Source: Streptomyces lincolnensis (GTDB lineage: Bacteria > Actinomycetota > Actinomycetes > Streptomycetales > Streptomycetaceae). From it: a stretch of DNA of 64,000 nt. The notes beneath the pieces were generated by a model, which was not told the DNA's origin, searched no databases, and worked only from the letters and a program-made list of their open reading frames with translations. The stretch is from contig NZ_CP016438.1 in NCBI RefSeq assembly GCF_001685355.1, positions 8,370,001-8,434,000 on the forward strand, written 5' to 3'. Both the position numbers and the translations under genes were made by a program. Of the stretch, positions 12,270-41,547 are shown one piece after another; the stretch's first letter is position 1, and each line of letters opens with the position of its first letter.

Positions 12270-12351
12270 GCGCGGCAGCGACGGGGGAGGGGTGTGACGA
12301 GGGGAGGGGTGTGACGAGGCCGACCCGGCGTTTGTCTGGCATCTGTGCGCC

Positions 12352-12368
12352 GTAGACTGTAGACGAAA
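12352..12368. promoter_or_regulatory. Candidate autoregulatory site upstream of gntR (site B)
   Basis: The bottom strand reads TACAGTCTA (12353-12361), related to the YACRGTCGA core of sites A, C and D. On the top strand ACTGTAGACGAAA resembles the reverse complement of part of site A (ACTGTAGACAATA). It lies about 75 bases before the gntR start, where an autoregulated promoter would be. Confidence 0.4.
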
Positions 12369-12441
12369 GACAATCGATACTGGTGTCCGCTGGCACCGGC
12401 TCACGGTCGCTGTGCACGGCCCGCCGAGGAGGGGGACCGCG

Positions 12442-13119: not shown

Positions 13120-13137
13120 TCGGGCCGGGGGTTCGGC

Positions 13138-13965: not shown

Positions 13966-14186
13966 CCGGTCCCCCTCTCCCCGCCCCCCGGCGGCCGCCC
14001 GCCCGGGTGTGCTGCCCATCCTGCGGCGTGAACGCGGGGGACACCAGGGCAAGAAGCGTCTTTGTCCTGTGAGTGGAGAAAGTTGGCAGCAATCTCTGCA
14101 CAGCTTCTTCCCAGCCTCGGCAGCCGCTGCTACGTTCCCCCTCGAAAGCCGGACAGCAGGCGGCCGATTCAGGCGGGGAGGGGCTC

Positions 14187-15377: not shown

Positions 15378-15476
15378 TTCCGACCCGCACAGTTGTGACC
15401 CGCACAGTTCTGCTCCGCGTAGTTCTCGCACAGTTCTGATCCGCACAGGTCTGCCCCGCGTGGTCCTCATCCGCGC
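15361..15476 (+). repeat. 15-base tandem repeat array between the ROK and ABC transporter genes
   Basis: About eight imperfect units of AGTTCTGACCCGCAC, each 15 bases except one 11-base unit at 15421-15431. The first unit lies inside the last codons of the ROK gene, and the array covers over half of the 204-base gap. It is too short and has no unique spacers, so it is not a CRISPR array. The remaining gap up to 15581 holds only the ribosome site of the next gene. Confidence 0.8.
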
Positions 15477-15581
15477 AGGCACGTTTCCTCGAAGTACCGC
15501 CCTCGACACGGCACGCCAGCACCTCCCGCTGCTTCGCCCTGCCCTGATTCCGGCCCGTACGCCAGCCAGGGGGACCCGCAC

Positions 15582-21648: not shown

Positions 21649-24156
21649 GTGCACGGGAAAGACAGCACCACCGGCACCGACAGAATCGAGACCCACAGAC
21701 GACGCGCCCCGTGGCGCAGAGCGGCGGCCCTGATCAGCGGGCTGCTGCTGGCGGGAGCGTCCCTCGGTCTCACCGCTCCCCAGGCCGGCGCAGCCGTCGC
21801 CGGCGAGGGGGCCGCCGCGGCGGCCGCCGAGGACTTCCAGCAGGTCACCCTCGCCAAGGGCGAACCGGAGGTCGGCGAGCCCATGTCGCTCGCCGTCCTC
21901 CCGGACCGCTCGGTCCTGCACACCTCCCGCGACGGCGAACTCCGTCTCACCGACGCGGCCGGCACCACCAAACTGGCGGGCAAGCTGGACGTCTACAGCC
22001 ACGACGAAGAGGGCCTCCAGGGCATCGGCGTCGACCCGGGCTTCACCGAGAACCGTTTCATCTACCTCTACTACGCGCCCCCGCTCAACACCCCCGCGGG
22101 CGACGCCCCCGAGACCGGCGCCGCCGCCGACTTCGCGCCCTTCGACGGCGTCAACCGGCTCTCCCGGTTCGTCCTGAAGGCCGACGGCACCCTCGACAAC
22201 GCCAGCGAGACGAAGATCCTCGACGTCCCGGCCTCGCGCGGCATCTGCTGCCACGTCGGCGGCGACATCGACTTCGACGCGGCGGGCAACCTGTACCTGT
22301 CGACGGGCGACGACTCCAACCCCTTCCAGTCGGACGGGTTCACGCCCATCGACGAGCGGGCCGACCGCAACCCCGCCTTCGACGCCCAGCGCACCTCGGG
22401 CAACACCAACGACCTGCGCGGCAAGATCCTGCGCATCAAGGTCGGCGCCGACGGCTCGTACTCCGTCCCGGCCGGCAACCTCTTCGCACCCGGCACGGAC
22501 AAGACACGGCCCGAGATCTACGCCATGGGCTTCCGCAACCCGTTCCGCTTCAGCGTCGACAAGGCCACCGGCATCCTCTACGTCGGTGACTACGGCCCCG
22601 ACGCCGGCGCCGCCGACCCGGCGCGCGGACCGGCGGGCCAGGTCGAGTTCGCCCGGGTGACCGGCCCCGGCAACTTCGGCTGGCCGTACTGCACCGGCGA
22701 CAACGACGCCTACGTCGACTACGACTTCGCCACCGGCACCTCGGGCGCCGCCTTCGACTGCGCCGCCCCGAAGAACACCTCGCCGAACAACACCGGCCTC
22801 ACCGACCTGCCCCCGGCCCAGACGGCCTGGATCCCCTACGACGGCGGCTCCGTGCCCGAGTTCGGCAGCGGCTCCGAGTCCCCGATGGGCGGCCCGGTCT
22901 ACCACTACGACCCCGCGCTCGACTCGCCCGTGAAGTTCCCCGAGGTCTACGACGGCGACTTCTTCGCCGGTGAGTTCGGCCGCCGCTGGATCAAGCGGAT
23001 CTCCAGCGACGCGGGCGGCACCGTGGAGTCGATCAACGACGTCCCGTGGACCGGCACCCAGATCATGGACATGGCCTTCGGCCCGGACGGCGCGCTGTAC
23101 GTCCTCGACTACGGTCTCGCCTGGTTCGGCGGCGACGAGAACTCGGCCCTCTACCGCATCGAGAACGCCACCGACGGCCACTCCCCGGTCGCCCAGGCCG
23201 CCGCGAACCGCACCTCCGGCCAGGCCCCGCTGAGGGTGGGCTTCTCCTCCGCGGGCACCAGCGACCAGGACGGCGACGCCCTCACCTACAGCTGGGACTT
23301 CGGCGACGGCCGCACGTCGACCGCGGCCAACCCGACCCACACGTACCGCAAGAACGGCACCTACACGGCGACACTGACCGCCAAGGACGCCTCCGGCCGT
23401 ACGGGCAGCGCGAGCGTGCAGATCGTGGTGGGCAACACCGCACCCAAGGTGACCCTCGAACTCCCGCGTGACGGCCAGCTGTTCAGCTTCGGCGACGCCG
23501 TCCCGTTCAAGGTGAGGGTCACCGACCCCGAGGACGGCCGGACCATCGACTGCTCCAAGGTCAAGGTCACCTTCATCCTCGGCCACGACAGCCACGGCCA
23601 CCCGGTCACCTCCGCCAACGGCTGCACCGGCACCATCCAGACCAGCGCCGACGGCGGCCACGACGACGACGCCGACATCTTCGGCGTGTTCGACGCCGAG
23701 TACACCGACAACGGAGGCGGTGGCCAGGCCCCGCTGACCACCCACGACCAGAACGTCCTCCAGCCCAGGCACCGCCAGGCCGAGCACTTCGGCGCCTCCT
23801 CCGGCGTCACCGTCATCGCCAAGGACACCGCGCACGGCGGCAACACGGTCGGCGACATCAACAACGGCGACTGGATCTCCTTCACGCCGTACGTCCTGAG
23901 CAACGCCAAGTCGATCACCGCGCGCGTCTCCTCGGGCGGTGCCGGCGGCACCCTGGAGGTCCGCGCCGGATCCGCCAAGGGCACCCTGCTCGGCAAGGCC
24001 ACCGTGCCCGTGACCGGCGGCTGGGAGACCTTCCAGGACGTCAGCGCCAACCTGTCCCGCGCCCCCAAGGGCACCACCACCCTGTACCTCGTCTTCAAGG
24101 GCAGCGGCACCGGCGCCCTGTACGACGTGGACGACTTCACCTTCACCACGAGCTGA
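21649..24156 (+). CDS. Secreted PQQ-type glucose/sorbosone dehydrogenase-like protein with PKD and CBM6-like domains
   Basis: An 835-residue exported protein. Residues 1-50 form a signal peptide with Arg pair and AGA cleavage region. About residues 60-510 form a six-bladed beta-propeller of the glucose/sorbosone dehydrogenase (GSDH) family (YSHDEEGLQGIGVDPGF, HVGGDIDFD, GFRNPFRFSVD, FGPDGALYVLDYG). A PKD domain follows at about 515-595 (SYSWDFGDG-like TYSWDFGDGRTS, then NPTHTYRKNGTYT). The C-terminal 120 residues resemble a carbohydrate-binding jelly roll (ending ALYDVDDFTFTT). The start is GTG at 21649 after TGGAGG. It likely oxidises or binds sugars outside the cell. Whether it uses PQQ is not shown, since no PQQ synthesis genes are in view. 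Confidence 0.88.
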   Translation: MHGKDSTTGTDRIETHRRRAPWRRAAALISGLLLAGASLGLTAPQAGAAVAGEGAAAAAAEDFQQVTLAKGEPEVGEPMSLAVLPDRSVLHTSRDGELRLTDAAGTTKLAGKLDVYSHDEEGLQGIGVDPGFTENRFIYLYYAPPLNTPAGDAPETGAAADFAPFDGVNRLSRFVLKADGTLDNASETKILDVPASRGICCHVGGDIDFDAAGNLYLSTGDDSNPFQSDGFTPIDERADRNPAFDAQRTSGNTNDLRGKILRIKVGADGSYSVPAGNLFAPGTDKTRPEIYAMGFRNPFRFSVDKATGILYVGDYGPDAGAADPARGPAGQVEFARVTGPGNFGWPYCTGDNDAYVDYDFATGTSGAAFDCAAPKNTSPNNTGLTDLPPAQTAWIPYDGGSVPEFGSGSESPMGGPVYHYDPALDSPVKFPEVYDGDFFAGEFGRRWIKRISSDAGGTVESINDVPWTGTQIMDMAFGPDGALYVLDYGLAWFGGDENSALYRIENATDGHSPVAQAAANRTSGQAPLRVGFSSAGTSDQDGDALTYSWDFGDGRTSTAANPTHTYRKNGTYTATLTAKDASGRTGSASVQIVVGNTAPKVTLELPRDGQLFSFGDAVPFKVRVTDPEDGRTIDCSKVKVTFILGHDSHGHPVTSANGCTGTIQTSADGGHDDDADIFGVFDAEYTDNGGGGQAPLTTHDQNVLQPRHRQAEHFGASSGVTVIAKDTAHGGNTVGDINNGDWISFTPYVLSNAKSITARVSSGGAGGTLEVRAGSAKGTLLGKATVPVTGGWETFQDVSANLSRAPKGTTTLYLVFKGSGTGALYDVDDFTFTTS

Positions 24157-24171
24157 GAGGAGGTACGCGTC

Positions 24172-25533
24172 ATGCGCTCAACCGGACGACTGAGCACGGC
24201 AGTCGTGGGCGCGGCCCTGCTCCTCGGCTGCGTCTCGGGACCCGCCGCCTCGCAACCGAGCGACTCCGCACGGGTGCTGGTCTTCTCCAAGACGGCCGGC
24301 TTCCGGCACGACTCGATCCCCGAGGGCGTGGCCACGGTCAAGCAACTCGGTGAGACCGAGGGCTACACCGTCGACGCCACCGAGGACGCGGGCGCGTTCA
24401 CCGACCGCAACCTGCGGCGGTACGACGCGGTCGTCTTCCTCTCCACCACGGGAGACGTCCTCAACGCGGCCCAGCAGCGGGCCTTCGAGGGCTACATCCA
24501 CCGCGGCGGCGCCTACGTCGGCATCCACGCCGCCGCCGACACCGAGTACGACTGGGAGTTCTACGGCGGCCTCGCCGGCGCCTACTTCCAGTCGCACCCG
24601 GCGATCCAGCCGGCGACGGTGGAGGTCGAGGACCACGCCCACCCGGCGACCTCGGCGCTCCCCGAGGCCTGGGAGCGCACCGACGAGTGGTACAACTACC
24701 GCAGCAATCCCCGGGAACGCGCCCATGTCCTCGCCTCGCTCGACGAGTCGTCGTACACCGGCGGCACCATGGACGGCGACCATCCGATCGCCTGGTGCCA
24801 GAACTACCAGGGCGGCCGTTCCTTCTACACCGGGGGCGGCCACACCAAGGAGTCCTTCGCGGAGCCGGCGTTCCGGCAGCACCTGCTGGGCGGCATCCGC
24901 TGGGCCGTCGGCGAGGCACAGGCCGACTGCCGCCCGGAGAACGGCTACCGGGCCCTGTTCGACGGCGGCTCTCTGGACGGCTGGCGGCAGTCGGGTCCGG
25001 GAACGTTCGATCTCGACGGCGACGGCACGATCACGTCGTCCGGCGGGATGGGGATGCTCTGGTATGCCGACTCGGGCTTCTCGTCGTACTCCCTGAAGCT
25101 CGACTGGAGGATGGCCGGCGCCTCGGGTGACGACAACTCCGGTGTGTTCGTGGGCTTCCCGCCCTCGGACGACCCGTGGTCGGCCGTGAACAACGGCTAC
25201 GAGATCCAGATCGATGCCACCGACGTCCCGGAGAAGACCACCGGGTCCGTCTACGGCTTCCGCTCCGCCGACCTGAAGAAGCGCGACCGTGCGCTGAACC
25301 CGCCGGGGGAGTGGAACACGTACGAGATCCGCGTGGAGGGCGAACGACTCCGCGTCTACCTCAACGGCGTGAAGATCAACGATTTCACCAACACCGATCC
25401 GGCCCGCTCGCTGCGGGACGGCCATGTCGGCATCCAGAACCACGGAGCCGACGACCGGGTGTCCTTCCGTGACATCCGGATCAAGGAACTGCCCGCGAAG
25501 GCCGGCACCGCTGTGCCTTCGCAGGGCGGCTGA
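24172..25533 (+). CDS. Exported ThuA-domain plus DUF1080 (3-keto-disaccharide hydrolase) fusion
   Basis: A 453-residue exported protein with a signal peptide ending in a possible lipobox (LLLGC). Residues about 35-250 form a ThuA domain (RVLVFSKTAGFRHDSI, GGAYVGIHAAADTEYDWEFYGGL, PIAWCQNYQGGRSFYTGGGHT). Residues about 260-440 form a DUF1080 jelly roll (YRALFDGGSLDGWR, NSGVFVGFP, NGYEIQID, WNTYEIRVEGERLRVYLNG). DUF1080 proteins are known to hydrolyse 3-keto-glycosides, and ThuA acts with a Gfo/Idh protein in trehalose 3-oxidation. It follows the propeller gene by 16 bases with AGGAGGT. This is the best clue that the operon handles 3-keto sugars. Confidence 0.88.
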   Translation: MRSTGRLSTAVVGAALLLGCVSGPAASQPSDSARVLVFSKTAGFRHDSIPEGVATVKQLGETEGYTVDATEDAGAFTDRNLRRYDAVVFLSTTGDVLNAAQQRAFEGYIHRGGAYVGIHAAADTEYDWEFYGGLAGAYFQSHPAIQPATVEVEDHAHPATSALPEAWERTDEWYNYRSNPRERAHVLASLDESSYTGGTMDGDHPIAWCQNYQGGRSFYTGGGHTKESFAEPAFRQHLLGGIRWAVGEAQADCRPENGYRALFDGGSLDGWRQSGPGTFDLDGDGTITSSGGMGMLWYADSGFSSYSLKLDWRMAGASGDDNSGVFVGFPPSDDPWSAVNNGYEIQIDATDVPEKTTGSVYGFRSADLKKRDRALNPPGEWNTYEIRVEGERLRVYLNGVKINDFTNTDPARSLRDGHVGIQNHGADDRVSFRDIRIKELPAKAGTAVPSQGG

Positions 25534-25683: not shown

Positions 25684-26886
25684 ATGTCCGCGTCCGTTTC
25701 CGCAGCGCGCGTCGGTGTCTGGCTGATCGGGGCCCGCGGTTCCGTCGCCACCACGGTCGTCGCGGGCTGCGCCGCCGTCACCGCCGGTCTGCATCCGCCG
25801 ACCGGACTGGTCACCGAGACCCCCGCGTTCGCCGACAGCGGCCTGCCCGCCCTGGCGTCACTCGTCTTCGGCGGCCACGACACGGTGGACTGCCCGCTGC
25901 CCAAACGCGCCGAGGCACTCGCCGCCGGCGGCGTCCTGCCCGTCGGCCTCCCGCCGGCGATCGCGGCCGAACTGGCCGCCGCCGACCGCGAGATCAGGCC
26001 GGGCGGCCCGCTCCGCGGCGACACCCGCGACGAGGAGGAGCTGATCACCGGCTTCGCCGCGGACATACGCGACTTCGTGAGACGGCACGGACTGGCACGA
26101 GCGGTGGTCGTGAACGTGGCTTCCACCGAGCCCGCCCCCGACGGCACGGCGCTGCCGCCCAGTTCCCTGTACGCGGCGGCGGCACTCCGCGCGGGCTGCC
26201 CCTACGTCAATTTCACCCCCTCCACCGGACTGCACCATCCCGCGCTTGCGGCCCCGGCGGCGACGAGCGGCCTGCCGTACGCGGGGCGCGACGGCAAGAC
26301 CGGCCAGACCCTGCTGCGCGCGGTCCTCGGCCCGATGTTCGCCCAGCGGGCGCTCGCCGTCCGGGCCTGGTCCGGCACCAACCTGCTGGGCGGCGGCGAC
26401 GGCGCGGCCCTGGCCGACCCGGCCGCCGCGGCCGCCAAGAACGCCGGCAAGGAACGCGTCCTCGCCGACACCCTCGGCACCGTCCCCGAGGGCGAGGTCC
26501 ACATCGACGACGTCCCCGCCCTCGGCGACTGGAAGACCGCCTGGGACCACATCGCCTTCGACGGCTTCCTCGGCGCCCGCATGATCCTCCAGACCACCTG
26601 GCAGGGCTGCGACTCCGCCCTCGCCGCCCCTCTCGTCCTCGACCTGGCCCGCCTCGTCGCCCGCGCCCACGAACAGGGCCTCTCCGGACCCCTGCCCGAG
26701 CTGGGCTTCTACTTCAAGGACCCGGTGGGGGACGGACCCGCGGCGTTGGGCGAGCAGTACGCGGCCCTGGTGGGGTTCGCGGAGCGGCTGCGAGGTGAGG
26801 TGGGCCGACGGCCGGACGCGGGGGGCGGCGAAGGCGGTGAGCGCTCGGCTCCTGGAGGCGACGCGAGCCCGGAGGCGGGTCGATGA
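25684..26886 (+). CDS. Inositol-3-phosphate synthase-like protein, first gene of the ebo block
   Basis: A 400-residue member of the myo-inositol-1-phosphate synthase superfamily. It has the NAD-binding opening VGVWLIGARGSVATTV, NVASTEP, YVNFTPSTGLHHP, GRDGKTGQT (with the conserved Lys), WSGTNLLGGGDG, and CDSALAAPLVLDL near the C-terminus. The classic enzyme converts glucose-6-phosphate to inositol phosphate. This one is diverged and ends in a Gly-rich tail. The ATG at 25684 has GAAGGAGG upstream, and the gene overlaps the EboC gene by 4 bases. It occupies the place of a cyclase in the ebo block, so it may supply a cyclitol phosphate to the next enzyme (inference). Confidence 0.88.
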   Translation: MSASVSAARVGVWLIGARGSVATTVVAGCAAVTAGLHPPTGLVTETPAFADSGLPALASLVFGGHDTVDCPLPKRAEALAAGGVLPVGLPPAIAAELAAADREIRPGGPLRGDTRDEEELITGFAADIRDFVRRHGLARAVVVNVASTEPAPDGTALPPSSLYAAAALRAGCPYVNFTPSTGLHHPALAAPAATSGLPYAGRDGKTGQTLLRAVLGPMFAQRALAVRAWSGTNLLGGGDGAALADPAAAAAKNAGKERVLADTLGTVPEGEVHIDDVPALGDWKTAWDHIAFDGFLGARMILQTTWQGCDSALAAPLVLDLARLVARAHEQGLSGPLPELGFYFKDPVGDGPAALGEQYAALVGFAERLRGEVGRRPDAGGGEGGERSAPGGDASPEAGR

Positions 26887-27929
26887 GCCGCCCCGGACAC
26901 GCGGGGGAGGGGCGCCCCGAGACCGGTCCCACCGGCCGTGCCGGGCGAGCGCGGGCCTGGGCCGAACTCCTGCGTCTCCCGGCCCTGTTCACCGTTCCCG
27001 GCGACGCCCTCGCCGGCGCGGCCGCCACCGGCGGGCGGGCGAACCCCCGCACGCTGCTCGCCATCGGCTCCTCCCTGTGCCTGTACGAGGCAGGAATGGC
27101 CCTCAACGACTGGGCCGACCGCGCCGAGGACGCCGTCGAACGCCCGCACCGCCCGCTCCCCTCCGGCCGCGTCCACCCCACCGCGGCCCTCGCGGCGGCC
27201 TGCGCCTTCACCGGCGCCGGACTGTCCCTCGCGGCCCTCGCCGGCCGCCCCGCCCTCACCGTCGCGGTCCCGCTGGCGACGACCGTCTGGGCGTACGACC
27301 TGTCCCTGAAGCACACCGCGGCAGGCCCGACGGCCATGGCGGCCGCCCGCGGACTGGACCTCCTCCTCGGCGCCGCGGCCACCACCGGCACCGGCGCCAT
27401 GAGCGGCGGCGTCCGTGCCGCCCTTCCCTCCGCCGCCGTCCTCGGCGCACACACCCTCGCGGTCACCACCGTCTCGCGCCGGGAGACCCAGGGCGGCGCA
27501 CCCCTGGCCGCCCTGGCCGCGCTGACGACGACGGCTGTCCTGTCCCGCCTGCTCACCCGCCCGCCGGGGAAACGGGGAAGCCCGACGGGGCCGGACATCG
27601 GACCGCGGGCCGAGCCCGGCACCGGAACACCGTCCATGCCCGCCACCACACCGGACACGCCCACACCCACCCCCGCCTTCCCGGTCACCGACGCCCTGCG
27701 CACCGCCCTCACCGCGGCCTACGCCACCACCGTCGCCCGCCCCTATTTCCACGCCACCCTCAATGCCTCACCCCCGCTCACCCAACGCGCGGTCGGCGCC
27801 GGAATCCGCGCCATGATCCCCCTCCAGTGCGCCCTCACCGCCCGCTCCGGGGCCCCTGTGGCCGCCCTGTTCACAGCCGCCCTGTCCCCGCTCGCGGCGC
27901 GGTTCGCGAGGAAGGTGAGCGTCACATGA
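26883..27929 (+). CDS. eboC: EboC-like UbiA-family prenyltransferase
   Basis: A 348-residue membrane prenyltransferase. The first Asp-rich motif is clear (ALNDWADRAEDAVERPHRPLPSGRV), and the second is degenerate (YDLSLKHTAAGPTAMAAARGLDLLLG). About eight hydrophobic helices are visible. A Pro/Thr/Gly-rich stretch (about residues 228-260) is inserted before the last helices. UbiA enzymes attach a polyprenyl chain to an aromatic, sugar or alcohol acceptor. Its start overlaps the synthase stop and its end overlaps the next gene, both as ATGA, so the block is tightly coupled. The acceptor is unknown; the upstream cyclitol-type synthase suggests a cyclitol. Confidence 0.87.
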   Translation: MSRPGHAGEGRPETGPTGRAGRARAWAELLRLPALFTVPGDALAGAAATGGRANPRTLLAIGSSLCLYEAGMALNDWADRAEDAVERPHRPLPSGRVHPTAALAAACAFTGAGLSLAALAGRPALTVAVPLATTVWAYDLSLKHTAAGPTAMAAARGLDLLLGAAATTGTGAMSGGVRAALPSAAVLGAHTLAVTTVSRRETQGGAPLAALAALTTTAVLSRLLTRPPGKRGSPTGPDIGPRAEPGTGTPSMPATTPDTPTPTPAFPVTDALRTALTAAYATTVARPYFHATLNASPPLTQRAVGAGIRAMIPLQCALTARSGAPVAALFTAALSPLAARFARKVSVT

Positions 27930-28885
27930 GCGCCGCAAGCCCCGCCGCCACCCCCCTCCGCTTCGGCTACGGCACCAACGGTCTCGCCGACCTCCGTCTC
28001 GACGACGCCCTCGCTCTCCTCGCCGACCTCGGCTACGACGGCGTCGGTCTGACCCTCGACCACATGCATCTCGACCCGATGGCCCCGGACCTGCCCGCCC
28101 GCACCGCCCGCCTCGCGCACCGGCTGAGCGCGCTCGGTCTGGAGGTCACCGTGGAGACCGGTGCCCGCTATGTGCTCGACCCGCGCCGCAAACACGGCCC
28201 CTCCCTGCTGGATCCCGACCCGGACGACCGCGACCGACGCGTCGACCTGCTGGTCCGTGCCGTGCGGGTCGCCGCCGACCTCGGCGCCCACGCCGTGCAC
28301 TGTTTCAGCGGGATCACCCCGGCGGGCACCGACGAGGACACCGCGTGGAAGCGACTCGCCGAGGCCCTCGCCCCCGTGCTGGAAGCCGCCGCCACCGCCG
28401 GCGTCCCCCTGGCCGTCGAACCCGAACCCGGTCACCTCCTCGCCACCCTCGCCGACTTCCACCGCCTGCGCCGCGCCCTCGGAGACCCCGAGCAGCTCGG
28501 GCTGACCCTCGACCTCGGCCACTGCCAGTGCCTCGAACCCCTGCCGCCCGCCGACTGCGTACGCGCCGCCGCCCCCTGGCTGTGCCACGTCCAGATCGAG
28601 GACATGCGCCGGGGCGTCCACGAACACCTCCCGCTCGGCGACGGCGAGATCGACTTCCCGCCCGTCCTCGCCGCCCTGTCCGCCGTCGGCTACCAGGGCC
28701 TGACCGTCGTCGAACTGCCCCGCCACTCCCACGCGGGACCCCACTTCGCCGCCCTCTCCCTCCCGTTTCTCCACCACGCCGCGTCCGTGTCCAACGGCAC
28801 GACCCCGAACCCGCCGCTTCCCCCTCCGCCCGACGCGCCACCTCCAGGCGAGCCCTCCGCCACCCCAGAAGGGAGCACCCCATGA
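27926..28885 (+). CDS. TIM-barrel sugar isomerase/epimerase of the ebo block
   Basis: A 319-residue AP_endonuc_2 family protein beginning LRFGYGTNGLADLRLDDALALLADLGYDGVGLTLDHMHLDP. Metal-binding positions are visible in LAVEPEPGHLL, GLTLDLGHCQC, LCHVQIEDMRRGVHEHLPLGDGEIDF and GLTVVELPRHSH. The C-terminal 40 residues are Pro-rich and probably disordered. It overlaps both neighbours by 4 bases. It is distinct from EboE, which lies three genes further on. The substrate is unknown. Confidence 0.87.
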   Translation: MSAASPAATPLRFGYGTNGLADLRLDDALALLADLGYDGVGLTLDHMHLDPMAPDLPARTARLAHRLSALGLEVTVETGARYVLDPRRKHGPSLLDPDPDDRDRRVDLLVRAVRVAADLGAHAVHCFSGITPAGTDEDTAWKRLAEALAPVLEAAATAGVPLAVEPEPGHLLATLADFHRLRRALGDPEQLGLTLDLGHCQCLEPLPPADCVRAAAPWLCHVQIEDMRRGVHEHLPLGDGEIDFPPVLAALSAVGYQGLTVVELPRHSHAGPHFAALSLPFLHHAASVSNGTTPNPPLPPPPDAPPPGEPSATPEGSTP

Positions 28886-29601
28886 CCCACCCCGGCGCCA
28901 CCCCCGTCACCCAGGGCACCACCCCCGCCCGCACCCCGCCGGCCGACCTGCACCGCCACCTCCGCTCCCACCTGGGCGACACCGCCCGTGCCTGGCTCGA
29001 CCAGGCCCTCGACGAGGCCGCCGCGAACCCCGGCGCCCACGGCCCGATCTCCGTGTGGGAGCTGCGCCTCGCCGAGGCCGGACGCCGCTGCGGCCCCGAA
29101 CACGCCGACGCCGTCCGCGTCCTGATCCTGCACGCGGCCCGCGCCGACACCGACGCCCTCAGCCGCGTCTACGCCCAGGGCACCGCCGCCGAACGCCGCG
29201 CCGTCCTGCACGCCCTGCCCCACCTGGTGCCCGGACCGGACGCGCTCCCACTCGTCGAGGACGCCCTGCGCACCAACGACACCCGGCTCCTGGCCGCCGC
29301 CGTCGGCCCGTACACCGCCCGGCACCTGGCCCCCCACCTCTGGCGCCACGCCGTCCTGAAGTGCCTGTTCACCGGCGTGCCCGTGGACGAGGTCACCGAC
29401 CTGGACCGGCGCGCCCACGCCGACGAGGAACTCGCCCGCATGCTCGGCGACTACGCCGCCGAGCGCTCCGCCGCGGGCCGCCCCGTCCCCGAGGACCTGC
29501 ACCGGGTCCTCACCCTGACCGGCACCACGGACCCGGCGTCCGCCGGGCACGGCACCCGCTCCTTCGACGGCTCTGACGGTATCGACGGCAAGGAGTCCTG
29601 A
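28882..29601 (+). CDS. eboA: EboA domain protein
   Basis: A 239-residue, mostly helical soluble protein. It is recognised as EboA from the pattern of a helix-rich N-terminus (LHRHLRSHLGDTARAWLDQAL), the segment ERRAVLHALPHL followed by VEDALRTNDTRLLAAAVGPYTARHL, and HLWRHAVLKCLFTGVPVDEVTDLDRR, together with its place between the TIM-barrel gene and the TatD-like gene. EboA has no known enzymatic activity. The ends overlap the neighbours (ATGA and TGATG), typical of a coupled operon. Confidence 0.85.
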   Translation: MTHPGATPVTQGTTPARTPPADLHRHLRSHLGDTARAWLDQALDEAAANPGAHGPISVWELRLAEAGRRCGPEHADAVRVLILHAARADTDALSRVYAQGTAAERRAVLHALPHLVPGPDALPLVEDALRTNDTRLLAAAVGPYTARHLAPHLWRHAVLKCLFTGVPVDEVTDLDRRAHADEELARMLGDYAAERSAAGRPVPEDLHRVLTLTGTTDPASAGHGTRSFDGSDGIDGKES

Positions 29602-30449
29602 TGCGCCTCTTCGACCCCCACATCCACATGACGTCGCGCACCACCGACGACTACGAGGCCATGTACGCCGCCGGCGTCCGGGCCGTCGTCGAGCCGTCCT
29701 TCTGGCTCGGCCAGCCCCGCACCTCCGTCGCCTCCTTCCTCGACTACTTCGACTCCCTCCTGGGCTGGGAGCCCTTCCGCGCCGCCCAGTACGGCATCGC
29801 CCACCACTGCACGCTCGCCCTGAACCCCAAGGAGGCGAACGACCCGCGGTGCGTCCCCGTCCTCGACGAGTTGCCCCGGTATCTCGTCAAGGACCAGGTC
29901 GTGGCCGTCGGCGAGATCGGCTACGACTCGATGACCCCCGCCGAGGACACCGCCCTGGCCGCGCAACTCCAGCTCGCCGCCGACCACGGGCTGCCCGCCC
30001 TGGTCCACACCCCCCACCGCGACAAACTCGCCGGCCTGCGCCGCACCCTCGACGTGGTCCGGGAATCCGCGCTGCCCGCGGACCGCGTCCTGGTCGACCA
30101 CCTCAACGAGACCACCGTCAAGGAGGCCAAGGACAGCGGCTGCTGGCTGGGCTTCTCCGTCTACCCGGACACCAAGATGGACGAGGCGCGGATGGTCGCC
30201 ATCCTGGAGATCCACGGCCCGGACAAGGTGCTGGTCAACTCGGCCGCGGACTGGGGCAGAAGCGATCCGCTCAAGACCCGCCGGGTCGCGGACGCCATGC
30301 TGGCGGCAGGCTTCGACGAGGACACCGTGGACCTGGTGCTCTGGCGCAACCCGGTCGCCTTCTATTCGCTGAGCGGCCGCCTCGACCTGACCGTCGCCGA
30401 CCCGGCCGGCACCCACGAGGGCAACTCGATTCTGCGTGGGGGCGAGTAG
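29601..30449 (+). CDS. eboB: EboB, TatD-family metal-dependent hydrolase
   Basis: A 282-residue amidohydrolase-fold protein. Metal ligands are visible in FDPHIHMTSRT, VGEIGYDS, LVHTPHRDK and VDHLNETTVK, with Asp in NSAADWGRSDPLK. This follows the TatD order H-x-H, E, H, H, D. It starts on the last base of the EboA stop codon and ends 3 bases before EboE. TatD proteins are nucleases or hydrolases; the role in ebo blocks is unknown, and scytonemin work in Nostoc places the cluster in export of a precursor to the periplasm. Confidence 0.88.
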   Translation: MRLFDPHIHMTSRTTDDYEAMYAAGVRAVVEPSFWLGQPRTSVASFLDYFDSLLGWEPFRAAQYGIAHHCTLALNPKEANDPRCVPVLDELPRYLVKDQVVAVGEIGYDSMTPAEDTALAAQLQLAADHGLPALVHTPHRDKLAGLRRTLDVVRESALPADRVLVDHLNETTVKEAKDSGCWLGFSVYPDTKMDEARMVAILEIHGPDKVLVNSAADWGRSDPLKTRRVADAMLAAGFDEDTVDLVLWRNPVAFYSLSGRLDLTVADPAGTHEGNSILRGGE

Positions 30450-30452
30450 GGC

Positions 30453-31667
30453 ATGCGTTTCCGCCACCCCGACGGCACCACCGTCCACCTCGCCTACTGC
30501 ACCAATGTCCACCCGGCCGAGACCCTGGACGGCGTCCTCGCCCAACTGCGCGACCACTGCGAGCCCGTCCGCCGCCGCCTCGGCCGCGACCGACTGGGCA
30601 TCGGACTGTGGCTCGCCAAGGACGCCGCACACGCCCTCGTCACCGACCCGTCCGCGCTGCGCGCCCTGCGCACCGAACTCGACCGGCGCGGCCTGGAGGT
30701 CGTCACCCTCAACGGCTTCCCCTATCAGGGCTTCGGCGCCGAGGAGGTCAAGTACCGCGTCTACCGGCCGGACTGGGCCGATCCCGAGCGCCTCGACCAC
30801 ACCACCGCCCTGGCCCGCGTCCTGGCCGGTCTTCTCCCCGACGACGTCACCGAGGGCAGCGTCTCCACCCTGCCCCTGGCCTGGCGCACCGACCTGCCGC
30901 CACACCCGAGCCCCACCGGACCGAGCCCGGCAGGCCCCCTCCCCGCGGACCGCGTGGAGAGCGGCCGCAAGGCCCTGGTCACCCTCGCCGAACGCCTCGA
31001 CGCGCTCGCGGAACTGACCGGCCGCTCCATCCGCGTCGGCCTGGAACCCGAACCCGGCTGTGTCGTCGAGACCACCCGCGACGCCATCGCCCCCCTGACC
31101 GCGATCGCCCACGACCGGATCGGCATCTGCGTCGACACCTGCCACCTCGCCACCTCCTTCGAAGACCCGCACACCGCCCTGGACGCGCTCACCTCGGCCG
31201 GCATCCCCGTCGTCAAGTCCCAGCTCTCGGCCGCCCTGCACGCCGAACACCCCCATCTCCCCGAGGTCCGTGCGGCCCTGGCCGCCTTCGACGAACCCCG
31301 CTTCCTGCACCAGACCCGCACGGCCACCGCCGCCGGTCTGCGCGGCACCGACGACCTCGGCGAAGCCCTCCGGGGGGACTCGCTCCCCGACGCGAGCCCC
31401 TGGCGCGCCCACTTCCACGTCCCGCTGCACGCGGCCCCCGCCGCGCCCCTCACCTCCACGCTCCCCGTCCTCAAGGCCGCCCTCGCCCGGCTCGTCGGGG
31501 GCCCGCGCCCGCTCACCCGCCATCTGGAGGTCGAGACCTACACCTGGCAGGCCCTTCCGCCCGAGCTGCGGCCCCGCGGCCGGTCCCAGCTCGCCGACGG
31601 CATCGCCGCCGAACTGTCCCTGGCCCGCGACCTGTTGACCGACCTCGGCCTGAAGGAGCTCCCATGA
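30453..31667 (+). CDS. eboE: Metabolite traffic protein EboE (xylose-isomerase-like)
   Basis: A 404-residue TIM-barrel protein with the EboE hallmarks LAYCTNVHPAETLDGVLAQL, LNGFPYQGFGAEEVKYRVYRPDWADP, the metal-site segments VGLEPEPGCVVET, GICVDTCHLATSFED and HFHVPLHA, and HLEVETYTWQALP near the C-terminus. It begins after GAGTAGGGC and overlaps EboF by 4 bases. The family is linked to transport of secondary-metabolite precursors across the membrane in cyanobacteria. The chemistry is not known. Confidence 0.9.
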   Translation: MRFRHPDGTTVHLAYCTNVHPAETLDGVLAQLRDHCEPVRRRLGRDRLGIGLWLAKDAAHALVTDPSALRALRTELDRRGLEVVTLNGFPYQGFGAEEVKYRVYRPDWADPERLDHTTALARVLAGLLPDDVTEGSVSTLPLAWRTDLPPHPSPTGPSPAGPLPADRVESGRKALVTLAERLDALAELTGRSIRVGLEPEPGCVVETTRDAIAPLTAIAHDRIGICVDTCHLATSFEDPHTALDALTSAGIPVVKSQLSAALHAEHPHLPEVRAALAAFDEPRFLHQTRTATAAGLRGTDDLGEALRGDSLPDASPWRAHFHVPLHAAPAAPLTSTLPVLKAALARLVGGPRPLTRHLEVETYTWQALPPELRPRGRSQLADGIAAELSLARDLLTDLGLKELP

Positions 31668-33061
31668 GCACCGAACGGACCACTCCCCGGCCGACGCCCC
31701 TGCTCGTCCTCGACGTCGTCGGCCTCACCCCCCGTCTTCTCCACCACATGCCCCACCTGAAGTCCCTCGCCCGGTCGGGCTCCCAGGCGCCCCTCGGCAC
31801 CGTCCTGCCCGCCGTCACCTGCGCCGCCCAGTCCACCTTCCTCACCGGCACCCACCCGTCGGAGCACGGCATCGTCGGCAACGGCTGGTACTTCCGCGAG
31901 CTCGGCGACGTCCTCCTGTGGCGCCAGCACAACGGGCTGGTCGCCGGCGACAGACTCTGGGACGCCGCCCGCCGCGCGCACCCCGGCTACACCGTCGCCA
32001 ATATCTGCTGGTGGTACGCCATGGGCGCCGACACCGACATCACCGTCACCCCCCGTCCGATCTACTACTCCGACGGCCGCAAGGAACCCGACTGCTACAC
32101 CCGGCCCCCGGCCCTGCACGACGAACTCACCGAGGAACTCGGCACCTTCCCGCTCTTCCACTTCTGGGGACCCGGCGCCGACCTCGTCTCCAGCCAATGG
32201 ATCATCGACGCGACCCGGCACATCGTCCGCACCCGCCAGCCTGACCTGACGCTCTGTTACCTCCCGCATCTCGACTACGACTTGCAGCGCTTCGGCCCCG
32301 ACGACCCGCGCTCCCTGAAGGCGGCCGCCGACCTGGACACCGCCCTGGCCCCGCTCCTGGACGACGCGCGCGCCGAGGGCCGTACCGTCGTCGCGCTGTC
32401 CGAGTACGGCATCACCCGCGTGGACCGGCCCGTCGACATCAACCGCGCCCTGCGCCGCGCCGGCCTGCTGGAGGTGCACACCCAGGACGGCATGGAGTAC
32501 CTCGACCCGATGGCCTCGCGCGCCTTCGCCGTCGCCGACCACCAGATCGCCCACGTCTACGTCCGCCGGCCGGAGGACCTCGACGCGACCCGGGCCGCCC
32601 TCGACGGACTGCCCGGCATCGAGCAACTCCTCGACGACGAAGGCAAGAAGGCACACCACCTCGACCATCCGCGCGCGGGCGAACTCGTCGCCGTCGCGGA
32701 ACCGGACGCCTGGTTCACGTACTACTACTGGCTCGACGACGACCGCGCTCCCGACTTCGCGCAACTGGTCGAGATCCACCGCAAACCCGGCTACGACCCG
32801 GTCGAACTCTTCATGGACCCCCTCGACCCCTATGTGAAGGTCAAGGCGGCCAAGGCCCTGGCACGCAAGAAACTCGGGATGCGCTACCGCATGGCGGTCG
32901 TGCCCCTGGACCCCTCACCTATTCGAGGCAGCCACGGCCGCCTCCCGGCGAGCGACGACGACGGTCCGCTCCTCATCTGCTCCACCCCCCGCGCTGTCGG
33001 AGACCGCGTCGCGGCCACCGATGTGAAAGCACTCCTGCTCCAACTCGCCGGTCTCACCTGA
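31664..33061 (+). CDS. eboF: EboF, nucleotide pyrophosphatase/phosphodiesterase family protein
   Basis: A 465-residue alkaline-phosphatase-superfamily protein. Metal/nucleophile regions are LLVLDVVGLT, VTCAAQSTFLTGTHPSEHGIVGNGWYF, LPHLDYDLQRFG, VVALSEYGIT and ADHQIAHVYV. No signal peptide is visible, so it appears cytosolic, as is usual for EboF. It is the last gene of the coupled block; an 88-base gap follows. Family members cleave phosphodiester or pyrophosphate bonds, so it could remove phosphate or a nucleotide from an ebo intermediate (inference). Confidence 0.89.
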   Translation: MSTERTTPRPTPLLVLDVVGLTPRLLHHMPHLKSLARSGSQAPLGTVLPAVTCAAQSTFLTGTHPSEHGIVGNGWYFRELGDVLLWRQHNGLVAGDRLWDAARRAHPGYTVANICWWYAMGADTDITVTPRPIYYSDGRKEPDCYTRPPALHDELTEELGTFPLFHFWGPGADLVSSQWIIDATRHIVRTRQPDLTLCYLPHLDYDLQRFGPDDPRSLKAAADLDTALAPLLDDARAEGRTVVALSEYGITRVDRPVDINRALRRAGLLEVHTQDGMEYLDPMASRAFAVADHQIAHVYVRRPEDLDATRAALDGLPGIEQLLDDEGKKAHHLDHPRAGELVAVAEPDAWFTYYYWLDDDRAPDFAQLVEIHRKPGYDPVELFMDPLDPYVKVKAAKALARKKLGMRYRMAVVPLDPSPIRGSHGRLPASDDDGPLLICSTPRAVGDRVAATDVKALLLQLAGLT

Positions 33062-33149: not shown

Positions 33150-34211
33150 ATGAGCCGCACCTCCCAGCCCGACCCCGAGCTCACCCACCGACTCACCAGA
33201 CGCGGCATGCTGGGCGTGGCCGCCGGTGCCTCCGCCGCCGCCCTGCTCGGCGCGGCGGCCCCCGCTACCGCCGCCACCTCGGGCACCACCACCGGCTCCG
33301 CGACCGCGGCCGGCGGCCGTGGCCGTCCCGTCCTGCCGCCCGGGCGGCTCGGCATCCAGCTCTACAGCCTGCGCGACAAGGTCTCCACCCTGGGCTTCGG
33401 ACCCGTCTTCGCCGAGCTGGAGAAGTACGGCTACGACGAGGTCGAGTACGCCGGGTACACCCAGGGGTCGGCGGGCGCCATCACACTCGCCCAGCTCAAG
33501 CAGCTCACGCGTGACCACGGCCTGAACGCGATCGGCAGCCACGTCGGGTACTACTCCAACGACCCGAACGCCTACACCTTCGCGACGAACCTCACCAAGG
33601 TCCTGGACGACGCCGAGGCCCTCGGGCTCAAGCACATCGGCACGGCCTCGGGGCCGTTCCGCTACGGCGACACGGTCGACGCGTGGAAGCGCGCAGCCGA
33701 GGAGTTCAACACGTACGGGGCTGCGGCGAGGAAGCGCGGCATGAAGTTCTACCAGCACAACCACTCGGAAGAGTTCATGTTCGCCTCGGACAAGCCCAGC
33801 GTCCGCCTCTACGACGTGCTCCTCGCCGAAACCGACCCTGACCTGGTCTTCCTGGAGATGGACATCTTCTGGGCGTACGCGGGCCAGTTCCGCTTCTCCC
33901 AGCAGGTCGACGGCACCCCGCGCCCCTTCGACCCGCTGCGCTACGTCCTCAAGCAGCCGCACCGCTACCCGCTGTTCCACGTCAAGGACGGCACCAAGGA
34001 CCCAACGTCCACGTACGGCTACCGCATGACGGACGTCGGCGACGGCGACATCGACTACAAGCGGTTCCTCTCCGAGGTGACCCGTCGCTCCCACAACGGC
34101 CGCCGCTACCACCACTGGCAGGCGGAGCACGACAACCCGGCCGAATCCTTCGCGTTCGCCCGCAAGTCGAGCGAGCACCTGCATTCGCTGCGGGAGCGTT
34201 GCGGCGACTGA
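33150..34211 (+). CDS. Tat-exported TIM-barrel sugar isomerase/epimerase-like protein
   Basis: A 353-residue protein with a clear Tat signal (LTRRGMLGVAAGASAAALLGAAAPATA) followed by an AP_endonuc_2 TIM barrel. It begins LGIQLYSLRDKV, with metal-site segments FYQHNHSEEFMF, VFLEMDIFWAYAG, PLFHVKDG and HHWQAEHDN. The ATG at 33150 has GAGGAG upstream. It is separated from EboF by 88 bases, so it may be part of the same transcript. Secreted members of this family occur with 3-keto-glycoside enzymes, which would also fit the sugar operon upstream. Confidence 0.87.
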   Translation: MSRTSQPDPELTHRLTRRGMLGVAAGASAAALLGAAAPATAATSGTTTGSATAAGGRGRPVLPPGRLGIQLYSLRDKVSTLGFGPVFAELEKYGYDEVEYAGYTQGSAGAITLAQLKQLTRDHGLNAIGSHVGYYSNDPNAYTFATNLTKVLDDAEALGLKHIGTASGPFRYGDTVDAWKRAAEEFNTYGAAARKRGMKFYQHNHSEEFMFASDKPSVRLYDVLLAETDPDLVFLEMDIFWAYAGQFRFSQQVDGTPRPFDPLRYVLKQPHRYPLFHVKDGTKDPTSTYGYRMTDVGDGDIDYKRFLSEVTRRSHNGRRYHHWQAEHDNPAESFAFARKSSEHLHSLRERCGD

Positions 34212-36415: not shown

Positions 36416-38563
36416 TCATCGACCGCCCCCCAACAGCCCCGCCGCGCGCGCCCAGCGGTACTTCGCGCCGAGCACCGCGACCGGCTTCTCCGTGGTGTAG
36501 GGGTAGGCGACGACGCCGTGCTCGAAGAGGTACTGGCAGGCCTCTTCGACCTCGACATCGCCCGCGAGCGACGCGACCACCGGCTTCTCGATGCCGCGTT
36601 CCTTGAACTCGGCCACCACCCTCGCGGTGAGCTCGGCGAAGACCATCGGGGGAGTGACGATCGTGTGCCAGTAGCCGAGCACCAGGGAGTGGATCCGCGG
36701 GTCCTCGAGTCCGAGACGGATGGTCGCCTCGTACGTCGAAGGGGGTTCGCCGCCGGTGATGTCCACGGGGTTGCCCGCGGCGCCGAACGGCGGGATGAAC
36801 TTCCGGAAGGCCGCGTCCAGATCCTCCGGAATCTCCATCAGCTGGAGGCCGTTGTCCATCACCGCGTCGGACAGGAGCACACCGCTGCCGCCGGCGCCGG
36901 TGATGATCACGATGTTGTGGCCCTTGGGTGTGGGCAGGATCGGCAGCGCACGCGCGTACTCGAGCATGTCGTTGAGACCCGGAGCCCGGATCACACCGGC
37001 CTGCTTGAGGATGTCGTCGTACACCGCGTCGTCGCCGGCGAGGGCGCCGGTGTGCGAACCGGCCGCCTTGGCGCCGGCCGCCGTGCGGCCCGCCTTGAGG
37101 ACCACGACCGGCTTCTTCGGCACGGTCGCCCGCGCGGCCTCCACGAAGGCCCGGCCGTCCTTGAGGTCCTCCAAGTGCATCGCGATGCAGTCGGTGTTGG
37201 GGTCCTCGCCGAACCAGGTGAGCAGGTCGTCCTCGTCGAGGTCCGACTTGTTGCCGAGGCCGACGATCGCCGAGACACCCGTCTTGGTCGTCCGCGCGAA
37301 GCCCAGGATCGCCATCCCGATACCGCCGGACTGGCTGGTCAGGGCCACGCCGCCCTTGACGTCGTACGGCGTGCAGAACGTGGCGCACAAGTCGTGCCAC
37401 GTCGAGTAGTAGCCGTAGATGTTGGGTCCGAGGAGTCGTACGCCATGACGCTCGGCGATCTCCACGATCTCGTCCTGGAGGGCGTGCTCGCCGGTCTCGG
37501 CGAAGCCGGAGGGGATGAGGACGGCGTTCGGTATCCCCTTGCGACCCACCTCCTCGAGAGCCGAAGCCACGAACTTGGCGGGGATCGCGAAGACCGCCAC
37601 ATCCACCTCACCCGGAACGTCCGTGACACTCTTGTAGGCCTTGCGGCCCAAGATGTCATCGGCCTTGGGGTTCACCGGATGGATCTCTCCGCCGAAGCCG
37701 CCGTCGATGAGGTTGCGCATGACCGAATTGCCGATCTTGCCCTGCTCGTTGGAGGCACCGATCACCGCGACCGAGCTCGGCTGCATCAGCCGCTTCATCG
37801 AGCGCAGGATCTCCTCGCGGCTGTACTTGCGGCGCTCCTTGGGTACCTCGTCCGTGAGGATCACACGGATGTCCGCGGCCATCGCGCCCTCGGGCGTGGC
37901 GATCACCGGGTTGAGGTCGACCTCCGCGATGTCAGGGAAGTCCGTGACCAGTTCGGAGACCCGGCGGATCTGCTCGGCCACCGCCCAGCGGTCCACCGGC
38001 TGGGCGCCGCGGACGCCGCGCAGGATCTCCGCCGCCTTGATGGAGTCGAGCATCGACTGCGCCTCGTCGGCGCTGACCGGCGCGAGCCGGAAGGTGACGT
38101 CCTTGAGGACCTCCACCAGGACACCGCCGAGCCCGAAGGCCACGACCTTGCCGAAGGTCGGATCGGTGACGGCACCGACGATGACCTCCTGGCCGGGCGG
38201 CAGCATCTGCTGCACCTGGATGCCGTCGATCTTCGCCTCGGAGTTGTACGCCTTGGCGCTCTCGATGATCTTGTGGAACGCGGCCCGCACTTCTGCGGCC
38301 CCCTCGACGCCCACGATCACACCGCCGGCGTCGGTCTTGTGCAGGATGTCGGGGGAGACGATCTTCAGGACCACCGGTCCGTCGAAGCGCGCCGCCGCGG
38401 CGACCGCCTCGTCAACATCACGGGCCAGCTCCTCGCCGGGTACAGCGATGCCGTACGCATCGGCGATCACCTTGCCCTCCGGCGCGGTGAGTGTGCTGCG
38501 CCCCTCGGCGCGTACGGCATCGAGCAGGGCTCGCACCGTCAGCGCACGGTCTTCGGCCATCAC
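36416..38563 (-). CDS. NDP-forming acyl-CoA synthetase (fused alpha and beta domains)
   Basis: A 715-residue acetate-CoA ligase (ADP-forming)-like enzyme. The N-terminal ATP-grasp (beta) domain (GPVVLKIVSPDILHKTDAGGV, VDLNPVIA) covers about residues 1-230. The CoA-binding and ligase-CoA (alpha) domains follow (SVAVIGASNEQGKIG, SQSGGIGMAIL, KAGRTAAGAKAAGSHTGALAGDD with the phosphohistidine). These enzymes interconvert acyl-CoA plus ADP and acid plus ATP through a phospho-His. In this operon it could make oxalyl-CoA from oxalate or conserve energy from formyl-CoA (inference). GTG at 38563 is used (GGAG 9 bases upstream); ATG at 38560 is next in frame. Confidence 0.9.
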   Translation of the reverse strand: MMAEDRALTVRALLDAVRAEGRSTLTAPEGKVIADAYGIAVPGEELARDVDEAVAAAARFDGPVVLKIVSPDILHKTDAGGVIVGVEGAAEVRAAFHKIIESAKAYNSEAKIDGIQVQQMLPPGQEVIVGAVTDPTFGKVVAFGLGGVLVEVLKDVTFRLAPVSADEAQSMLDSIKAAEILRGVRGAQPVDRWAVAEQIRRVSELVTDFPDIAEVDLNPVIATPEGAMAADIRVILTDEVPKERRKYSREEILRSMKRLMQPSSVAVIGASNEQGKIGNSVMRNLIDGGFGGEIHPVNPKADDILGRKAYKSVTDVPGEVDVAVFAIPAKFVASALEEVGRKGIPNAVLIPSGFAETGEHALQDEIVEIAERHGVRLLGPNIYGYYSTWHDLCATFCTPYDVKGGVALTSQSGGIGMAILGFARTTKTGVSAIVGLGNKSDLDEDDLLTWFGEDPNTDCIAMHLEDLKDGRAFVEAARATVPKKPVVVLKAGRTAAGAKAAGSHTGALAGDDAVYDDILKQAGVIRAPGLNDMLEYARALPILPTPKGHNIVIITGAGGSGVLLSDAVMDNGLQLMEIPEDLDAAFRKFIPPFGAAGNPVDITGGEPPSTYEATIRLGLEDPRIHSLVLGYWHTIVTPPMVFAELTARVVAEFKERGIEKPVVASLAGDVEVEEACQYLFEHGVVAYPYTTEKPVAVLGAKYRWARAAGLLGGGR

Positions 38564-38564
38564 G

Positions 38565-39806: not shown

Positions 39807-39815
39807 CGGGGCACC

Positions 39816-41498: not shown

Positions 41499-41547
41499 GG
41501 CGAAGTCCTGTCCCTTCGTAGGGGGTTGGAACGCTCTCGAGTACATT

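Follow-up and report, generated by a model that had tools for sequence, protein, structure and literature searches.

This study concerns a block of seven genes in the genome of Streptomyces lincolnensis that resembles the ebo cluster and carries an unexpected cyclase gene. The block occupies positions 25684-33061 of a stretch of 64,000 nucleotides (contig NZ_CP016438.1, positions 8,370,001 to 8,434,000), referred to here as the window. All seven genes lie on the plus strand and overlap or almost touch, with spacings of -4, -4, -4, -1, +3 and -4 bases, exactly as given in an initial annotation made from the sequence. The first gene (25684-26886) encodes a sugar-phosphate cyclase-like protein of 400 amino acids from the inositol-phosphate synthase (MIPS) family, an assignment already made in that annotation and borne out by both MIPS domains, which pass their curated cut-offs (PF07994, 120 bits, cut-off 25; PF01658, 99.9 bits, cut-off 27). 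It is followed, in the EboC position, by a UbiA-superfamily prenyltransferase (26883-27929; PF01040) of the SCO3242 subfamily (NF045897, 392 bits, cut-off 260), by a xylose-isomerase-like TIM barrel, the companion of the MIPS gene (27926-28885; PF01261, 157 bits), and by an EboA-domain protein (28882-29601; NF035938, 162 bits, cut-off 50). The block is completed by EboB, a TatD-like metal-dependent hydrolase (29601-30449; PF01026, 49 bits), the TIM barrel EboE (30453-31667; NF035939, 421 bits, cut-off 250), and EboF, a member of the type I phosphodiesterase/nucleotide pyrophosphatase family (31664-33061; PF01663, 243 bits).

No NCBIfam model so named matched the fifth and seventh genes, and EboB and EboF were assigned via their counterparts in an EboD-type cluster (L045), to which the window genes were compared with E-values of 7e-155 for EboF, 5e-61 for EboB, 9e-51 for EboE and 1e-14 for EboC. 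The family and L045 matches confirm all four of the annotated proteins EboA, EboB, EboE and EboF, which stand together as the six-gene ebo definition demands, while the EboC equivalog and EboD belonging to the same definition are lacking. The same arrangement is kept across families of Actinomycetota and is therefore not due to chance. Scans for promoters and terminators gave no signal above chance, and a single-sequence search at E 0.001 found no solved-structure relative of EboF or of the prenyltransferase. The whole genome (10.3 Mb, one contig) holds one EboA match, two MIPS genes and three genes of the dehydroquinate (DHQ) synthase family.

EboD is absent from this block, and an Archaeoglobus-type MIPS with its catalytic residues stands in its place, with EboA, EboB, EboE and EboF kept. 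The three DHQ-synthase-family members encoded in the genome were scored on an EboD profile made from 84 proteins and reach 166, 195 and 124 bits, against 560 bits for a true EboD left out of the profile and up to 569 bits otherwise. Judged by eye from their sequences, the three resemble AroB, EEVS-like and DOIS-like enzymes; the EEVS-like and DOIS-like cyclases are located far from the ebo block, at 6069097 and 9949966 of G000:C1, possibly in other biosynthetic clusters. An EboD hidden elsewhere in the genome is ruled out by these scores, which do not exceed 197 bits where true EboD proteins reach at least 560. Across 396 Actinomycetota genomes, where only matches with E <=1e-45 were taken, the profile detects a single EboD (624 bits), in genome G301, and the second-best score, 197 bits, belongs to the window genome. 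G301 is also the only one of the 27 EboE-bearing genomes whose ebo cluster, L045, is of the EboD type; the EboD profile finds no match in the other 26. The lack of EboD that the initial annotation had reported for the block is thus extended to the genome, and an eboD homologue always co-occurring elsewhere with such blocks, which would have spoken against the proposal, is not what these genomes contain, the one EboD among the 396 being part of an EboD-type cluster itself. At least one DHQ-synthase-family gene is present in all 27 ebo-bearing genomes, as AroB predicts, and 20 of the 27 have only one strong match (E <1e-20).

The cluster MIPS has its nearest solved structure in the Archaeoglobus fulgidus enzyme (1u1i, 197 bits), with Mycobacterium tuberculosis INO1 at 33 bits and Ari2 at 38; among known proteins, one from S. 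lincolnensis is 98% identical to it. It scores 27.7 bits on the mycothiol INO1 model TIGR03450, whose cut-off is 638, and it does not belong to the Ari2 type, for which 6k96 would be the closest solved structure. The second MIPS of the host shows the reverse pattern (INO1 608 bits, Ari2 207, A. fulgidus enzyme 40) and is of the mycothiol type. Counted along the alignment, Asp225, Lys274, Lys306 and Asp332 of the A. fulgidus enzyme, which we take to be active-site residues, align with D203, K252, K284 and D310 of the window protein. The residues altered in the mutant structures of A. fulgidus MIPS, Asn255, Lys278 and Lys367, correspond to N233, K256 and K345, which are unaltered here; the mutants at these positions are less active, and a network of conserved lysines has been described (PMC11348189). 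All seven positions are identical in 30 of the 31 MIPS proteins encoded at ebo loci, the window included, the exception being the incomplete gene of L043. They are likewise invariant in a second alignment of 30 sequences (the window protein, 12 from Streptomyces and 17 L213-like), as is the phosphate-loop stretch KTGxT apart from its x. In EboD, E188, H251, H267, K146, K155 and K191 (AroB-fragment numbering) are kept in 84 of 84 sequences, presumably with the metal-binding residues and the active-site lysines of the family among them. Judged by these residues, both cluster types look like intact cyclases, and the cyclase chemistry predicted for the cluster MIPS is well supported.

The exchange is neither confined to the window nor to one phylum. 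EboE is present in 27 of the 396 Actinomycetota genomes (26 above the cut-off), and cluster-type MIPS, sought with matches of E <=1e-30, occurs in 25 of them with 373-581 bits, every time in an EboE-bearing genome; other MIPS of the same broad type reach at most 355 bits on the cluster-MIPS profile. These genome-wide profile searches score the best few candidates of each genome. The 28 ebo loci fetched from the 26 EboE genomes other than that of the window comprise 25 with MIPS, one with EboD (L045) and two with neither, namely the frameshifted L064 and L038, which is a second cluster beside a MIPS-type one in its genome. In L043 the MIPS gene is incomplete and lies in a stretch with runs of N. 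In G237 (L037, L123), no PF01658 match turned up besides the cluster MIPS. A MIPS profile matched 137 of the 199 Streptomyces genomes sampled (E <=0.001), a count taken irrespective of the surroundings of the genes and including a few weak or partial matches.

Beyond these genomes, the GTDB species collection was scanned with an EboE alignment, and the best 80 of 591 confirmed stretches, ranked by likeness to an EboD-type EboE and with no Actinomycetota names in their titles, gave 77 loci with EboD, none with MIPS and three with neither. Of 47 plasmid records matching EboE, 14 were opened, picked for spread; eight carry EboD (Deinococcota, Pseudomonadota, Bacteroidota), five carry MIPS (four Actinomycetota and Gemmatirosa, a member of the Gemmatimonadota), and one has a lone EboE. 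This last one, on a plasmid of Streptomyces sp. NBC_01244 (L210, 8980-10158), sits within a type II polyketide synthase cluster. On two other Streptomyces plasmids (L209, L220) the whole MIPS-type block is found in an apparent biosynthetic cluster with a SARP regulator, 4'-phosphopantetheinyl transferases and a TauD dioxygenase. In total, the 122 ebo loci from several phyla, to which the window itself is additional, divide into 84 with EboD (at least 60 bits), 30 with MIPS (at least 100 bits), eight with neither and none with both. Among the eight, EboD is cut off at the contig end in L154 and L181, L210 is the lone EboE, L064 is frameshifted, and L038, L135, L152 and L174 have no cyclase within the fetched stretch. 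Tabulating the cyclase family of each ebo cluster had been proposed with the initial annotation, and the outcome agrees with its claim of a MIPS-like gene in place of EboD: the two cyclases are mutually exclusive over a long evolutionary distance.

A restriction of the MIPS type to Actinomycetota is ruled out by plasmid 2 of Gemmatirosa kalamazoonensis (L213). Among the best 120 relatives of its MIPS, seven of the eight with an organism name come from the Gemmatimonadota, the phylum that includes the Longimicrobiales, and ebo context was seen for L213 alone. In EboB, EboE and EboF this cluster is closer to the EboD type (EboB 487 vs 235 bits, EboE 383 vs 246, EboF 664 vs 572). An EboE tree of the 122 loci requires two changes between the types; as L064 and L062 have very long branches and deep support is weak, no branching order is taken from it. 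A 61-row tree that places every MIPS-type EboE in one clade is not rejected by the approximately unbiased (AU) test (p 0.67), and its likelihood lies above that of the free quick tree. Independent swaps in Actinomycetota and in Gemmatirosa would be one possible reading. The cyclases themselves were compared in a tree of 58 MIPS proteins, from which the incomplete L043 and the duplicate loci L123 and L125 were left out. There, a fully supported split separates 23 host-type proteins from the rest, and the 29 cluster MIPS of Actinomycetota form one group (SH-aLRT 82). The L213 protein falls outside this group; its branch is long and is placed close to five MIPS of the broad Archaeoglobus type that do not come from ebo loci. 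The fully supported split and the different best matches among solved structures rule out the mycothiol-type MIPS of the host as the source of the cluster gene. In three genomes (G050, G072, G094), a second MIPS is also of the broad Archaeoglobus type and forms a separate, fully supported branch (L117, L119, L122).

The replacement of the cyclase is accompanied by changes in two further genes. The window prenyltransferase reaches 120 bits on the EboC model NF035940, whose cut-off is 250, so that the initial naming of an EboC, with a UbiA-type enzyme directly after the MIPS gene, is right in the broad sense but not for the EboC equivalog, the protein belonging to the distinct SCO3242 subfamily. 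Five further MIPS clusters of Actinomycetota were scanned, and all five pass the cut-off of this subfamily, as does the cyclase-less L038; three EboD-type prenyltransferases score 80-102 bits on the SCO3242 model, far below it, and with 89-101 bits on the EboC model they miss that cut-off too. The Asp-rich motif 1 of UbiA enzymes, NDxxDxxxD (NDWADRAED in the window), and an SRxExxGG stretch are common to the prenyltransferases of both cluster types, which marks them as variants of one ebo-type UbiA enzyme. Of the 30 MIPS loci, 29 have the additional TIM barrel at a threshold of E 1e-20, against none of 84 EboD loci (Fisher p 3e-26, with loci that are not independent). This barrel is distantly like sugar isomerases, epimerases and IolE, and in L062 it is fused to EboA, a hybrid that Yurchenko et al. 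already mentioned for Actinobacteria (PMC5133447). The initial annotation regarded this gene as an extra one; at the threshold used it is indeed missing from the EboD loci, but it is part of the switch and not a mere addition, and it had been seen before. If the prenyl acceptor is the cyclitol or a compound derived from it, cyclase and prenyltransferase would be expected to change jointly, which is an argument and not a proof.

The surroundings of the block point to a recurrent association with oxidation. In the window, which places the block among genes for sugar uptake and degradation, it is preceded on the plus strand by a gene for a GSDH-type sugar-dehydrogenase-like protein with PKD and CBM6 domains (21649-24156; PF07995, PF18911, PF03422) and one for a protein with ThuA and 3-keto-disaccharide hydrolase domains (24172-25533; PF06283, PF06439), both conserved beside the ebo blocks of other genera. 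Downstream, on the same strand, follows a further TIM barrel (33150-34211; PF01261, 64 bits), a relative of which adjoins 13 of the 28 fetched actinobacterial loci. Genes for a CoA ligase, a class III CoA-transferase and a thiamine diphosphate (TPP) enzyme on the minus strand (36416-41546) look to us like oxalate or formyl-CoA metabolism. Of the 27 ebo-bearing Actinomycetota genomes, 19, from four of nine genera, have a GSDH match at a distance of 1.5-3.7 kb from the block; G335, where a full-length MIPS on contig C10 has a GSDH match 2 kb off and EboE is on C3, is not among the 19. As these genomes of 3.4-11 Mb hold 1-14 GSDH matches each, chance adjacency would be rare. Within the fetched stretches, a GSDH gene is found in 18 of 30 MIPS loci and in 3 of 84 EboD loci.

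Related functions are found at more distant loci. In two EboD-type clusters of Arenibacter (L198 and L162, about 3370-6737), a fused GSDH-ThuA gene directly precedes EboB, in L198 between EboA and EboB, and in L162 with no EboA found. Beside the Gemmatirosa cluster are a 3-keto-disaccharide hydrolase and a DUF7133 protein that falls just below the cut-off for PVC-type heme-binding proteins (120.4 vs 122.2 bits). On a plasmid of S. camelliae (L218, 3200-15426), a gene of the ScyD/ScyE family (243 bits, cut-off 80) stands directly before the MIPS-type block, which is followed by genes for an aromatic prenyltransferase (on the other strand), a methyltransferase and a multicopper oxidase. A dehydrogenase dependent on pyrroloquinoline quinone (PQQ) is annotated near the cluster of Salipiger. 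In L045, a type 2 isopentenyl diphosphate (IPP) isomerase gene (12622-13662; 320 bits, cut-off 281) overlaps the EboF end. Near the Mycetohabitans cluster (L208) lies a ferritin-like gene, presumably VioB-like, whose PF12902 domain was checked in this locus only; it has relatives in Aureibacter and Symploca (L217, L133). Each of these three EboD-type clusters is also flanked by a gene for a protein of about 630 amino acids. The theme shared by the neighbours, oxidation chemistry outside or at the membrane, suggests that ebo products may serve such enzymes.

We consider it somewhat probable that the ebo pathway has a second form, represented by this block, which relies on MIPS as another cyclase and makes a prenylated cyclitol for the same job as the EboD-derived product. 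The initial annotation saw in the block support for such a compound, which would carry or mark a cargo; the prenylated cyclitol as such is not a new idea and has been in print for the EboD type (PMC5133447, PMC6282210). In Nostoc, arrival of the scytonemin monomer in the periplasm depends on every ebo gene tested, eboD not being among them (PMC6282210). The MIPS, with bound NAD, would cyclize a hexose phosphate, most likely glucose 6-phosphate, to an inositol phosphate of whichever isomer. The TIM barrel may rearrange the ring product by isomerization or epimerization, EboF may take off the phosphate, and EboB and EboE could act before or after prenylation, conceivably in dephosphorylation or hydrolysis. 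The membrane-embedded UbiA enzyme would attach a prenyl chain to the cyclitol, perhaps through an ether bond. The model for this would be digeranylgeranylglyceryl phosphate (DGGGP) synthase, a UbiA relative which forms an ether on a phosphorylated polyol (PMC9385802) and is among the relatives to which the window prenyltransferase has weak NCBIfam matches. EboA would hold the complex together, as suggested for Nostoc (PMC6282210). The IPP isomerase gene at the EboF end of L045 fits the need for a prenyl diphosphate. The membrane-bound product would then assist a process that takes place at the cytoplasmic membrane or leads through it, with partner oxidases outside the cytoplasm; both the prenylation of the cyclase product and any role as a carrier are inferred.

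Several observations weigh against this proposal. In the literature searched, of which parts were available, no product of any ebo pathway is identified. The EDB cluster of Pseudomonas fluorescens NZI7 contains a full ebo cluster (PMC6282210) and, placed in E. coli, gives rise to indole compounds from tryptophan, with no mention of a prenyl-cyclitol in the available text (PMC9655573); this result fits a service role for pathways with indole or other cargo, and it shows no ebo product. MIPS leaves a phosphate to be removed and EboD does not (PMC5133447), yet EboF is present in both types, so that no single role of EboF is obvious. The host MIPS could supply inositol phosphate, and a dedicated enzyme may hence make another isomer or ring. 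The joint switch is incomplete in Gemmatirosa, where the prenyltransferase scores 172 bits on the SCO3242 model, below the cut-off; L048 has the MIPS without the TIM barrel, and the stretch fetched for L038 includes the TIM barrel and the SCO3242 prenyltransferase but shows no cyclase. Nor is the presence of a second TIM barrel in itself alien to the EboD type, since weak matches occur in L168 (6e-7) and L171 (6e-6), and in L211 an annotated sugar phosphate isomerase/epimerase comes directly after EboB. Finally, the ratio of 84 to 30 loci is skewed to EboD by the ranking on an EboD-type EboE and says little on rare MIPS types. As an observation on L038 itself (G123, 11800-16810), genes for an FAD-dependent oxidoreductase and an inositol-monophosphatase-family protein lie upstream on the same strand.

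Other explanations differ in what the cyclase would provide. With either cyclase, the pathway could serve secreted oxidoreductases, which we take to be beta-propeller proteins, by making a prenylated cofactor or electron carrier derived from the cyclitol, and not a lipid that moves metabolites across the membrane; we hold this to be possible but unlikely. It is favoured by the GSDH matches less than 4 kb away from the block (19 of 27 genomes, four of nine genera), together with the fused GSDH-ThuA gene inside or directly before the ebo genes of Arenibacter, the Gemmatirosa and Salipiger neighbours, the position of the S. camelliae block between ScyE-family and multicopper oxidase genes, and the finding that ebo and scyE mutants of Nostoc pile up the same monomer (PMC6282210). 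In the same study, however, this monomer is cytoplasmic in the ebo mutants and periplasmic in the scyE mutant, which a pure ScyE cofactor does not explain; GSDH is moreover rare at EboD loci and missing from 12 of 30 MIPS loci in the fetched stretches, and the neighbourhood is common by descent within a genus. A broader version, which we regard as doubtful, joins this theme to the prenylated cyclitol: ebo would be a general route to such a compound serving extracytoplasmic oxidation, with the ring step solved twice, by EboD or by MIPS with a helper TIM barrel, and with ScyD/ScyE and GSDH-, PVC- and PQQ-type dehydrogenases as partners.

The remaining alternatives concern the cyclase product. 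The cluster MIPS might differ in its product, for instance a cyclitol phosphate with a five-membered ring or a different inositol isomer, and this difference might be the reason for the swap; we consider this rather improbable. The host already has a mycothiol-type MIPS, and Ari2, a MIPS orthologue which converts fructose 6-phosphate to a five-membered cyclitol phosphate, illustrates that the family can change its product (PMC11188666), but the cluster MIPS has its closest match in the A. fulgidus enzyme and is far from Ari2, the Ari2-like protein being the INO1 of the host (207 bits), and its catalytic and phosphate-loop residues are those of a MIPS. Very improbable, in our view, is that the gene just raises inositol phosphate for phosphatidylinositol, mycothiol or inositol catabolism, lies outside the ebo pathway and replaced nothing. 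Its public name, inositol-3-phosphate synthase, and the setting among sugar-uptake and sugar-degradation genes would suit such a role. Against it stand the finding that the 25 genomes (of 396) with a cluster-type MIPS all possess EboE and lack EboD, the lack of an EboD match in 26 of 27 EboE genomes, the overlap of 4 bases with the prenyltransferase gene in the window, and the separation of cluster and host-type MIPS in the tree; given the mycothiol-type MIPS of the host, plain inositol supply is not an obvious reason for the cluster gene.

That one cyclase has been exchanged for a non-homologous one, and that the prenyltransferase subfamily has changed with it, is evidence supplied by nature that a cyclitol is required in the pathway and is tied to prenylation. 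The older guess that the ebo cluster builds a lipid-linked, sugar-like ring is thereby rendered directly testable, as MIPS is probably easier to assay than EboD, the substrate and product of its relatives being known, and the chemistry can be approached from the MIPS side. The ebo cluster is widespread, Streptomyces species are tractable hosts, and the link to secreted sugar oxidases offers a concrete place to seek a phenotype. Should the broader version hold, the prenyl-cyclitol would be a new membrane cofactor or substrate carrier for secreted oxidoreductases, and in the window it would serve the oxidative attack on extracellular sugars by the adjoining GSDH and ThuA/3-keto-sugar proteins.

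A MIPS replacing EboD in ebo clusters is not mentioned in the literature searched, from which most subscription papers were out of reach, so that this is no proof that none exists; the word inositol does not occur in the main texts of PMC5133447, PMC6282210 and PMC9235831. Public annotation names the genes an inositol-3-phosphate synthase, an SCO3242 family prenyltransferase and an EboA domain-containing protein. The closest known system is the six-gene eboA-F operon (Yurchenko et al., 2016; Klicki et al., 2018), known from eustigmatophyte plastids, cyanobacteria, sunscreen producers among them, and Bacteroidota. It shares EboA, EboB, EboE, EboF and a UbiA prenyltransferase in one block with the window, which differs in lacking EboD and in having the MIPS, the extra TIM barrel and a prenyltransferase of the SCO3242 subfamily. 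The cyclase has the two MIPS domains and the catalytic Asn and Lys positions in common with A. fulgidus MIPS (1u1i, 3qvw, 3qvx, 3qw2), but is encoded in an ebo block and belongs to an actinobacterial cluster group of its own. Mycothiol-type INO1 (1gr0, TIGR03450, Streptomyces InoA) is of the same superfamily and occurs in the same genome, but is very distant. Ari2 (6k96), from aristeromycin biosynthesis, is likewise a MIPS relative recruited to a secondary pathway, but is nearer to the INO1 type. A further parallel is provided by the SCO3242/SCO3243 pair of S. coelicolor, in which the namesake transferase of the NCBIfam family is numbered beside a MIPS gene, both being listed in the cluster for the calcium-dependent antibiotic (CDA; PMC3610822).

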